From: Gemmatimonadota bacterium
GTDB taxonomy: Bacteria; Gemmatimonadota; Gemmatimonadetes; Gemmatimonadales; Gemmatimonadaceae
Assembly: GCA_025362095.1 (NCBI GenBank)
Contig: JANYIJ010000250.1
Location: 1 to 34,787 of the forward strand
Length of the DNA stretch: 34,787 bases
Direction: 5' to 3'
Position 1 is the first letter of the stretch; every line of letters starts with the position of its first letter. The notes under the pieces are model-generated. The model made no database searches. It was not told the origin of the DNA and saw only the letters and a program-made list of their open reading frames with translations. Positions 5,317-34,787 of this stretch are shown here, in pieces. The position numbers and the translations under genes were made by a program.

Positions 5317-5326
5317 TAGTTGGTCG

Positions 5327-5432
5327 GTGTCTGGGGTCTTCTGTCTAGAGTCTGGAAACACGCTGTTTGCAGTTGTGAGCTCACAACCGCGAACAGCGTG
5401 TTTTTAGACCCCAGAAGGAAGACCCCAGACAC
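5327..5432 (+). terminator. Nested palindrome, probable terminator between zinc-ribbon gene and prfB
   Basis: Two nested inverted repeats fill the spacer. The inner one (5356-5403) is a near-perfect 48-base palindrome centred on GAGCTC at 5378-5382, with one wobble and one mismatch, and runs into TTTTT at 5401-5405 as an intrinsic terminator would. The outer arms GTGTCTGGGGTCTTC (5327-5341) and GAAGACCCCAGACAC (5418-5432) are perfectly complementary over 15 bases. A further AGACCCCAGAAG copy lies at 5406-5417. The size and nesting exceed a simple terminator, so it may also be a dispersed intergenic repeat. Confidence 0.7.
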
Positions 5433-5477
5433 AGACTCCACCGATTATCTTTCAGCTTCACTCCCATCTCAATTCCA

Positions 5478-25764: not shown

Positions 25765-25849
25765 GACCGAAGGCCGAAGACCGAAGACCGAAACCACGAG
25801 CGCCGCACTCGGGCCTGTTGTTTCGGACTTCGGTCTTCGGACTTCGGTC
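25765..25849 (+). repeat. Long inverted repeat between gdhA and rlmH (terminator-like)
   Basis: Beginning at the base after the gdhA stop codon, a 29-base arm (25765-25793) is complementary to 25821-25849 at 27 of 29 positions. Each arm is itself built of degenerate tandem copies of a 7-base unit, CCGAAGA or CCGAAGG. The 27-base loop contains a short CGAG/CTCG stem. There is no T-run after the stem, so it may act as a bidirectional or Rho-assisted terminator, or be a dispersed intergenic palindrome like the one at 5327-5432. It also leaves only 11 bases before the rlmH start. Confidence 0.8.
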
Positions 25850-32565: not shown

Positions 32566-32675
32566 CCGCATTCCTCCTCCGCACTCCGCATCGGGTTGAA
32601 TTGAATGCACTCCGCATCGGGTTGGCCTGATTTTCCGCATTCCTCATCCGCACTCCGCATCGGGTTGAATTGAAT
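32566..32675 (+). repeat. 41-base direct repeat pair with a partial third copy before larC
   Basis: A 41-base unit at 32566-32606 recurs at 32635-32675 with a single mismatch (C versus A). An 18-base partial copy, GCACTCCGCATCGGGTTG, lies between at 32607-32624. The unit starts CCGCATTCCTC and ends GGGTTGAATTGAAT. The last copy ends 2 bases before the larC ATG, so it supplies the whole leader of that gene, which lacks a Shine-Dalgarno sequence. Too few and too irregular for a CRISPR array. Confidence 0.9.
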
Positions 32676-32677
32676 AG

Positions 32678-33838
32678 ATGATTGCAATCCTCGATCCCTT
32701 CTCCGGCATCGCGGGTGACATGACCCTCGGCGCGCTTCTGGATCTTGGTTTGGATCCGGATTGGCTCCGCGCTCTGCCTGTCGCGCTCGGTCTCGAAGGC
32801 ACCACCGTCAAGATCGAGCGCGTGAAGCGCGGAGAGATCGCGAGCTGGAAAGTCGATTTCGACATTCCCCCGCAGCCGCACGGCCGTCACCTCAAGCATC
32901 TCAAGGCGATTGTCGATGCATCGCCCGCGCCGGCGCATGTGAAAGAGAAGGCCAACGCCGCATTCGAAGCTGTCGCGACGATCGAGGCCGAAATCCACGG
33001 CACCACGATCGACAAAGTGCACCTGCACGAAGTCGGCGCGGTGGACGCGATTCTGGATATTGTCGGATCGATTTGGGGATTCGATCTCATTGGTGTCGAT
33101 GCCGTGTACTGCGGCACTATCGCCCTCGGCGACGGATTCGTCGACGCGGCGCATGGGCGTCTCGCGGTTCCCGCGCCGGCCACACTGCGTCTGCTCGAAG
33201 GTCAGCGCGTACGCAGCGGTCCCGAGGGAAGCGGGGAACTCACCACACCCACGGGCGCTGCGCTGGTCAAGGTGCTCTCGCTCGGCGTCGCGCCTGATGA
33301 GTATCGTCCGCTCAAGAGCGGCTACGGCGCGGGCACGAAAGATCCGCAGGGTCGAGCGAATGTTCTGCGAATTATTCTCGGCGAGCTCGACCCGGTGAGA
33401 GGTGAGGAGTGCGAGCCGCTGCTCTTGCTCGCAGCGGATATCGATGACATGACTGGCGAGTACATCGCCATGGCCGCCGATCTCATTCGCGAGGCCGGCG
33501 CACTCGATGTGACCCTCCTGCAAACCATCATGAAGAAAGGCAGGCCGGGCGTGCGAATCGAAGTGCTCTGCCGTCCCGCCGACGCAACCAGACTTGAAGC
33601 GTTGCTCCTGCGCGAGAGCAGCACGATCGGCGTCCGCAGAACGGCACTCACCCGCCGCGCGCTGTCGCGCAACGAGGCCTCTGTGGATGTGTTCGGCCAT
33701 CGCGTCTCCGTAAAGTCAGTGCAGCTCCCCGGCGGCGGAGAGCGCGCAAAAGCTGAGTACGAGGACGTGCGCCGCGTCGCGCGCGAGACCGGAAGGACAA
33801 CCGCCGATATTCTTGAGGCCATCGCAAAGCGGCCGTAA
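32678..33838 (+). CDS. larC: LarC-family nickel-pincer cofactor nickel insertase
   Basis: 386 residues. LarC inserts nickel into the pyridinium-dithiocarboxylate nucleotide that becomes the cofactor of lactate racemase-type enzymes, using CTP. Family blocks are DPFSGIAGDMTLGALLDLG (6-24), KVHLHEVGAVDAILDIVG (with the HxHE cluster) and ADIDDMTGEYIAMA in the C-terminal half. The Lactobacillus gene is split by a programmed frameshift into LarC1/LarC2; here both halves are one frame. larA, larB and larE are not in the window. The function is well supported by family, but the client enzyme is unknown. No Shine-Dalgarno precedes the ATG; direct repeats form the leader. Confidence 0.93.
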   Translation: MIAILDPFSGIAGDMTLGALLDLGLDPDWLRALPVALGLEGTTVKIERVKRGEIASWKVDFDIPPQPHGRHLKHLKAIVDASPAPAHVKEKANAAFEAVATIEAEIHGTTIDKVHLHEVGAVDAILDIVGSIWGFDLIGVDAVYCGTIALGDGFVDAAHGRLAVPAPATLRLLEGQRVRSGPEGSGELTTPTGAALVKVLSLGVAPDEYRPLKSGYGAGTKDPQGRANVLRIILGELDPVRGEECEPLLLLAADIDDMTGEYIAMAADLIREAGALDVTLLQTIMKKGRPGVRIEVLCRPADATRLEALLLRESSTIGVRRTALTRRALSRNEASVDVFGHRVSVKSVQLPGGGERAKAEYEDVRRVARETGRTTADILEAIAKRP

Positions 33839-34787
33839 GGAGGGCGCCGGTTATCCGGCGCTCGACGGCTGGCGCGGAATCTGCGCGTCGCTCGTAGCGC
33901 TGTTCCATTTCAGAGTCGGGTGGAGCATCGGCGAGAACTCGCATTTCGCCCGCGCGGCGATCGTGCAGCATGCCTCGCTGTTCGTGGACTTCTTCTTCGT
34001 GCTAAGCGGCTTCGTCATCGCCTACCGCTACCGCGACGGGCTGACGGCGCGGACCATCCGCTTGCGCGATTTCGTCGCGCTGCGGTTGGGGCGCCTCTAT
34101 CCGCTGCATCTCGTTACGATGCTGCTTGTGCTCGCGATCGTCCTGTTCTTCCGGTATGGGACGCACGGAGCAGCGCACATCACCTGGGGCGGCGATGACG
34201 TATCGGTGAAGGCGTTCATCGCGAACCTGTTTTTGGCGCAGGGGCTGCACGTGCTTCCGGGCCCGTCGTTCAACCATCCCAGTTGGAGCATCAGCGCGGA
34301 GTTCGCGACCTACGTCGTGTTCGCTCTGCTGTGGACACAGCTCCGTACGCGCTCGTGGATCGCGACGAGTCTGATTCTTCTGGCGGCGCCCGTGGTGCTG
34401 CTCGGAGTCTTCGGGTACAACATCGACGTCTCGTACGACTGGGGATTTGTGCGGGCGATGCTCGGTTTCGCGCTCGGGACTGTCGCGTTCAGCGTATCGA
34501 AGCACGCGCAGGTGCGGGCGCTGCTCGACCAACTCACGCGCGCAGAAAGCACCGTGATCGAAGTGCTGCTGCTGGCGCTCACCTATGCGTTCGTCGCGTT
34601 CGCCGGCGACACGCCCTATTCGCTCGCGGCGCCTTTTCTATTCGCCGGAGTGGTGCTGGTTTTCAGCGAGCAGGGTGGAGCGCTCACGACGGCGCTGGTA
34701 TCTCGTCCGCTCCAATCACTCGGTCGTCTCTCGTACTCGATCTACATGCTGCACTTTCCGCTCCAGGTGATGATCACATGGGTGGCG
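33813..34787 (+). CDS. Acyltransferase family 3 membrane protein (OafA-like), 3' end cut by window
   Basis: An open frame runs to the window edge (at least 325 residues) and is not closed. The core begins GYPALDGWRGICASLVALFHF, the first helix of acyltransferase family 3. It continues with LFVDFFFVLSGFVIAYRYRD, RLGRLYPLHLVTMLL, FNHPSWSISAEFATYVVFA and LGRLSYSIYMLHFPLQ, with about ten membrane helices. Relatives acetylate or acylate cell-surface sugars. The start is uncertain. The only standard start codon just upstream is a TTG at 33813 inside larC, whereas a strong AAGGAGG (33837-33843) has no start codon at proper spacing and is followed by a perfect hairpin (33844-33861). The gene could have a damaged or unusual start. 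Confidence 0.8.
   Translation, partial: MRPSQSGRKEGAGYPALDGWRGICASLVALFHFRVGWSIGENSHFARAAIVQHASLFVDFFFVLSGFVIAYRYRDGLTARTIRLRDFVALRLGRLYPLHLVTMLLVLAIVLFFRYGTHGAAHITWGGDDVSVKAFIANLFLAQGLHVLPGPSFNHPSWSISAEFATYVVFALLWTQLRTRSWIATSLILLAAPVVLLGVFGYNIDVSYDWGFVRAMLGFALGTVAFSVSKHAQVRALLDQLTRAESTVIEVLLLALTYAFVAFAGDTPYSLAAPFLFAGVVLVFSEQGGALTTALVSRPLQSLGRLSYSIYMLHFPLQVMITWVA
33837..33863 (+). promoter_or_regulatory. Orphan Shine-Dalgarno and hairpin at the larC-acyltransferase junction
   Basis: AAGGAGG (33837-33843) lies on the larC stop codon. It is followed at once by GCGCCGG-TTAT-CCGGCGC (33844-33861), a 7-bp perfect stem with a four-base loop, extendable by a G-T and a G-C pair. No ATG, GTG or TTG lies within 5-12 bases. 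The hairpin overlaps the first conserved codons of the acyltransferase, so it could control its translation. Confidence 0.6.

Follow-up and report, generated by a model that had tools for sequence, protein, structure and literature searches.

The window, by which we mean the whole stretch of 34,787 nucleotides that was analysed (C107:1-34787), belongs to an assembly of 253 contigs that is 92% complete. Near its end lies larC (Ni_insertion, nickel-pincer cofactor synthesis; 32678..33838, forward strand; Pfam PF01969, E 5.8e-118), whose match of 394.7 bits against a cut-off of 22.1 identifies its product as a LarC protein. Matches to larC occur in 72 of the 99 genomes searched, the window's own genome counted. 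It is followed on the same strand by a gene for a membrane acyltransferase (Acyl_transf_3; 33813..34787; Pfam PF01757, E 7.4e-26), with the start taken as TTG 33813. The frame of this gene (codons 33714 + 3k) contains no stop between 33714 and the window's last base and gives 325 stop-free codons from TTG 33813. The contig end cuts the gene, so that its 3′ end is missing, and a search for the remainder on another contig returned only the window as a match to the last 201 bases. At 91.4 bits against a cut-off of 31, the product belongs to the Acyl_transf_3 family. It resembles other PF01757 acyltransferases in that the domain begins at residue 15 and carries LDGWRG and ALFHF motifs; it differs from them in an N terminus made partly of larC letters and in the missing 3′ end. 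It shares 49-50% identity with the product of a gene in the genus relative G017 across 311 residues uninterrupted by stops. The GC content at third codon positions (GC3) is 0.815, as against 0.728 in larC and 0.759 and 0.831 in two neighbouring genes that we take to be thrC and murJ, respectively; the total GC is likewise similar to that of the neighbours, and the codon score of the gene is positive (69).

Repeated and palindromic DNA is also present in the window. A 41-nt direct repeat (97.6%) lies just upstream of larC (32566-32606 and 32635-32675) and is a copy of a dispersed repeat with at least 50 matches in the window's genome, the window included, in both orientations. Long imperfect palindromes are located at 5323-5436 (114 nt, 84% self-complementary) and 25765-25849 (85 nt, 81%).

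The preliminary description of this DNA had drawn attention to a strong ribosome-binding motif on the larC stop that lacks a start codon behind it and is followed at once by a perfect hairpin, with a TTG inside larC as the only standard start just upstream; all of these features were found as described. The motif AAGGAGG (33837-33843, forward strand), the only copy on either strand of the window, overlaps the larC stop TAA (33836-33838, forward strand) and contributes the codons K-E-G in the acyltransferase frame. Directly behind it comes a 7-bp GC stem on the same strand, formed by GCGCCGG (33844-33850) and CCGGCGC (33855-33861) around a TTAT loop (33851-33854); the whole element (33844..33861) lies inside the codons for GAGYPAL in the N terminus of the acyltransferase. 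ATG, GTG or TTG begins nowhere between 33814 and 33919 in any frame, and across 33790-33959 there are only two such codons in all frames, TTG 33813 and GTG 33920. The latter, the first start codon to follow the TTG in any of the frames, is out of the acyltransferase frame. A start of the Shine-Dalgarno-led kind, located some 4-11 nt downstream of the motif, is therefore absent at AAGGAGG. Ahead of the conserved motif, the open frame of the acyltransferase offers no ATG, GTG or TTG other than this TTG (33813..33815, forward strand), which overlaps the end of larC by 26 nt, out of the larC frame. A start codon hidden by a one-base insertion or deletion can be excluded as the cause of the missing start, because no other ATG, GTG or TTG is found in 33790-33919 in any frame.

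Neither the AAGGAGG motif nor the hairpin clearly stands above chance. One AAGGAGG was observed against 1.87 expected per window, and the motif was present in 83 of 100 shuffles. The longer form TAAGGAGG, which was picked post hoc after it had been seen, also occurs once, against 0.11 expected per window, and was present in 10 of 100 shuffles; this longer form on a stop is rarer by chance than AAGGAGG alone, and this counts against reading it as an accident. The window contains 44 perfect stems of 7 bp whose loops measure 3-8 nt; 20 sequences generated by a first-order Markov model contained 35.25 on average (range 20-50). The fold of the 101 nt at 33800-33900 has a z-score of -1.64, and 14 of 200 shuffles were at least as stable. 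The peptide G-A-G-Y-P-A becomes near-palindromic once it is written in locally preferred codons: when 21 residues were recoded synonymously according to local codon usage, the exact stem arose in 2,324 of 20,000 draws (11.6%), and any 7-bp stem in 3,007 of the 20,000. The hairpin is likely to be a by-product of coding for GAGYPALDG.

The proposal that the hairpin regulates the acyltransferase gene found no support: homologues do not conserve the stem, the codons of the peptide would produce it fairly often, and neither a T-run nor an Rfam match above threshold accompanies it. Among 81 homologues (80 from a homologue search, plus the gene of the genus relative G017), a stem of at least 6 bp in the aligned segment is present in just one. 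The stem is missing in this segment from the two nearest acyltransferases, those of G017 and of another genus relative, G011, and AGGAGG does not occur within 30 nt ahead of the motif in any of the 81 homologues scanned. A terminator was rejected since no T-run was found at the hairpin. No Rfam family reached its threshold there, and a known RNA was rejected as well, the sole match being a snoRNA at 15.3 bits (gathering score 50) that lies elsewhere, at 33977-34025, on the opposite strand. A structured regulatory RNA or terminator, for which a conserved stem, a T-run or an Rfam match would speak, is accordingly not recognizable at this site.

The option of a rare start, also raised in the preliminary description, appears plausible, given that TTG 33813 is the sole standard start and would yield an N terminus of ordinary length, 16 residues ahead of LDGWRG. 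In 79 of the 81 homologues an in-frame ATG, GTG or TTG lies 5-28 residues before the LDxWRG motif (ATG in 76 of those), and 26 of the 81 have an in-frame start codon at 14-18 residues; the other two, L069 and L071, have one at least 35 residues before the motif. These are available codons rather than proven starts. The TTG is not preceded by a well-placed Shine-Dalgarno site. A weak Shine-Dalgarno-like AAGGA (33793..33797, forward strand) was left unscored by our script, which takes spacings of 3-14 nt; situated 15 nt before the TTG, it is too far away to be convincing as a good ribosome site. Shine-Dalgarno matches of at least 4 nt precede 9 of the 26 called genes of the window, and matches of at least 5 nt 2 of the 26 called starts, the acyltransferase being included in both totals; the 26 starts come from a rough script based on a simple codon score, which has probably misplaced some of them. 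With this reservation, strong Shine-Dalgarno sites look uncommon in the window, and their absence at the TTG looks ordinary. Eight larC genes were aligned at the codon that gives rise to the TTG: six of them read CTC there, and those of the window and G007 read CTT, which accounts for 9% of Leu codons locally. Judging from the sequence, translation of the acyltransferase most likely begins at TTG 33813, which is our best guess and one that we hold with moderate confidence.

We then compared the surroundings of larC across the genus, using 17 other genomes and the window's own (18 in total). Matches to larC and to the gene that follows it in the relatives, which we take to be DUF512-like, lie on one contig in 13 of the 17 other genomes; those left out are G003, G006 and G012, where DUF512 was unmatched, and G017, where larC was unmatched. 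The gap between the two is 58-113 nt in 12 of the 13, with G011 as the exception at 4,762 nt (these gaps are distances between matches, except that G009 was measured from the stop). Because the DUF512-like gene comes so soon after larC in 12 of these 13 relatives, the larC-acyltransferase arrangement of the window is unusual, and an orthologous larC-acyltransferase junction was found in none of the 17 other genomes. A search of the window's genome for DUF512 gave no match, although the same query matched 90 of the 99 genomes. The gene behind the DUF512-like gene is presumably a der-like GTPase gene, which occupies this position in G009 and G014; in the window's genome, contig C154 (3,309 bases) ends within the der-like gene. 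The truncated der-like gene and the missing DUF512 together point to an assembly gap at this locus.

Two further features of the DUF512-like genes were observed. In several of them a TGATAA/TGATAT box lies about 9-10 nt before the ATG (L133, at about 1636-1657, and L134, L140, L141, L144 and L145), and this box could be a candidate -10 element of a leaderless mRNA. The DUF512-like gene of G011 (G011:C126:35478-36602) is matched over residues 1-221 and again over residues 311-434, and this break suggests an internal deletion.

A DNA query covering the junction (33780-34787, 1,008 nt) was matched in 5 of the 18 genus genomes and at full length in the window's own genome only. The matches in G009 and G011 cover 33780-33837 and that in G014 covers 33780-33829, while G017 matches from 33852; G011 and G017 each have one additional short match elsewhere. 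An acyltransferase fragment in G011 aligns from 33845, with 73% identity over 108 nt. At the DNA level, larC homology thus stops at 33837 and acyltransferase homology starts at 33845, and these two limits place AAGGAGG at the seam between two homologies. The left limit of the acyltransferase homology is sharp at the DNA level only: the protein alignment to G011 starts at residue 10 (codon 33840), and the protein alignment from the genome search starts at residue 4 (codon 33822, inside larC), with residues 4-9 poorly alike. An ATG lies 27 residues before the LDG/LEG motif in G011 and 23 residues before it in G017. The latter also has a GTG 6 residues before the motif, so that the N-terminal extension may not be native in G017. 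The idea that the acyltransferase has lost its start therefore receives indirect support, with the DNA homology limits and the ATG codons of G011 and G017 in its favour, and the GTG of G017 and the further reach of the protein alignments against it. Part of the seam pattern could be mimicked by N-terminal divergence of a variable region, and the seam is known from one assembly, in which the contig ends some 950 bases further on.

The G011 locus contains, between larC and DUF512, the 3′ end of a gene that we take from its sequence to be gspE-like, then the acyltransferase 5′ fragment (L138 3173-3400, about 1.5 kb after the intact larC) and then a copy of the larC tail. The Trp codon of the motif reads TAG in this fragment, and the larC-tail copy (51 bp, 82% identical) is degenerate and in frame with it; as far as can be judged from these features, the fragment looks like a pseudogene. 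The association of this acyltransferase family with larC is seen in two assemblies, that of the window and that of G011, which argues against a random misjoin. A single event shared by the two is made less probable by G009, which has no insert after larC and is the closest relative of G011 here by larC DNA identity (89.5%, as against 81.4% for the window's genome), and by the breakpoints in G011, which differ from those of the window. The larC-DUF512 spacer of G009 has one copy of a repeat that is also present in the G011 insert, and this copy could be the scar of a deletion. Apart from the fragment in G011, an acyltransferase was found behind the gspE-like gene, the apparent source of that fragment, in none of 27 loci; two overlapping loci of the window's genome in the gspE-like search gave an insignificant acyltransferase match (E 0.70).

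The larC-DUF512 spacer of G011 also carries a MITE-like inverted-repeat element (L138 6083-6361) with arms about 71% alike. It has 46 matches in G011, 29 in G014, 25 in the window's genome (G000) and 14 in G009, mostly partial and often counting one place on both strands.

We propose that an acyltransferase gene, probably without its native start, was joined at the larC stop, where the relatives carry another gene. AAGGAGG and the hairpin would then be accidents of the joined letters and of the GAGYPALDG codons, serving neither as a ribosome site nor as a regulator. The TTG inside the end of larC would have been adopted as the start, giving the 26-nt overlap and an N terminus (MRPSQSGRK...) that is partly overprinted on larC. 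The rearrangement is one that we infer from sequence comparison, and the locus is probably what such an event ordinarily leaves behind, with signals at the seam that arose by accident. For a rearrangement seam, accidental signals and a start at TTG 33813 all taken together, we see about an even chance of being right.

The main rivals to a rearrangement with a start at the TTG are gene decay and misassembly. A decaying gene, one deprived of its start by the rearrangement and translated poorly or not at all, is a possibility to be kept in mind, though a rather unlikely one: a well-placed start signal is found nowhere, and the related G011 fragment is pseudogene-like, with its TAG in the motif and its run into the larC-tail copy, but the 325 stop-free codons and ordinary GC3 of the window's gene, and the ordinary N terminus that its in-frame TTG yields, speak against decay. 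We consider it unlikely that the last 950 bases of the contig have been misjoined to larC, or that the assembly lacks a segment containing the real start. The window does end within the acyltransferase, the locus is evidently broken here in view of the unfound DUF512 and the der-like gene cut at the end of C154, and dispersed repeats are common in this genome; however, an acyltransferase fragment occurs near larC in G011 too, independently of this assembly, the GC and GC3 of the gene resemble those of its neighbours, its codon score is positive, and a one-base indel offers no explanation for a start that is absent nearby in all frames.

Two other readings would assign AAGGAGG a real function, past or present. 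In one, TAAGGAGG was once followed after larC by a spacer and an ATG, and a deletion took the spacer, the ATG and the N terminus. A Shine-Dalgarno sequence over an upstream stop is a known arrangement (PMC2784483), the longer motif is expected just 0.11 times per window, and the ATG of G011, 27 residues before LDG, indicates that a comparable stretch could be missing in the window. We nevertheless regard this history as improbable, as larC is directly followed by the acyltransferase in no genus relative searched, and in G011 the fragment is preceded by the end of another gene and stands about 1.5 kb away from larC. It can be compatible with use of TTG 33813. In the other, AAGGAGG would direct ribosomes to start on a non-standard codon, with the hairpin acting as a gate. 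A strong motif does adjoin a stable stem, but the best-spaced rare-start triplet, ATC 33853, does not lie in the acyltransferase frame, G011 and G017 lack the stem, AGGAGG appears in none of the 81 homologues in the 30 nt scanned ahead of the motif, and no Rfam family reaches its threshold. The support for a non-canonical start is confined to the motif itself, and we judge such initiation very improbable; it is equally hard to credit that ribosomes terminating on larC are held at AAGGAGG and start there on a non-standard codon just inside the hairpin. A programmed +1 frameshift from larC into the acyltransferase, which is in the +1 frame of larC, was rejected, since to our knowledge the last codons AAG CGG CCG TAA match no +1 slip site and AAGGAGG overlaps the stop and extends beyond it instead of preceding it.

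By itself, the larC-acyltransferase junction has little significance. It does show how a convincing picture of a ribosome site and a hairpin can arise where genes are joined in GC-rich DNA and, if TTG 33813 is used, how a displaced gene may take its start from within its new neighbour.

The junction can be set beside three arrangements described in the literature. Termination-reinitiation coupling, like the present case, involves neighbouring genes on one strand, the second of which starts close to the stop of the first. According to Huber et al. (2023, PMC10666635), it needs short overlaps, mostly of 4 or 1 nt, and overlaps of more than 8 nt are called rare in one genome tabulated. The 26-nt overlap at the larC end is neither of the usual 4 or 1 nt nor a very short gap, and does not fit such coupling well. 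Shine-Dalgarno sites that overlap the stop of an upstream co-directional gene are described by Palleja et al. (2009, PMC2784483); TAAGGAGG sits on the upstream stop in the same manner, but the defining partner of that arrangement, a start codon 4-11 nt downstream, is absent here. Another parallel is with gene pairs whose overlaps, according to Fonseca et al. (2013, PMC3887535), resulted when a start codon was lost and replaced by one within the neighbouring gene. The present case differs from these pairs in that a rearrangement, not a point mutation, seems to have cost the gene its start and in that the new start is putative. It is like them in being a unidirectional pair overlapping through a 5′ extension, on the same strand and out of frame, with the sole standard start of the downstream gene located inside the upstream one.
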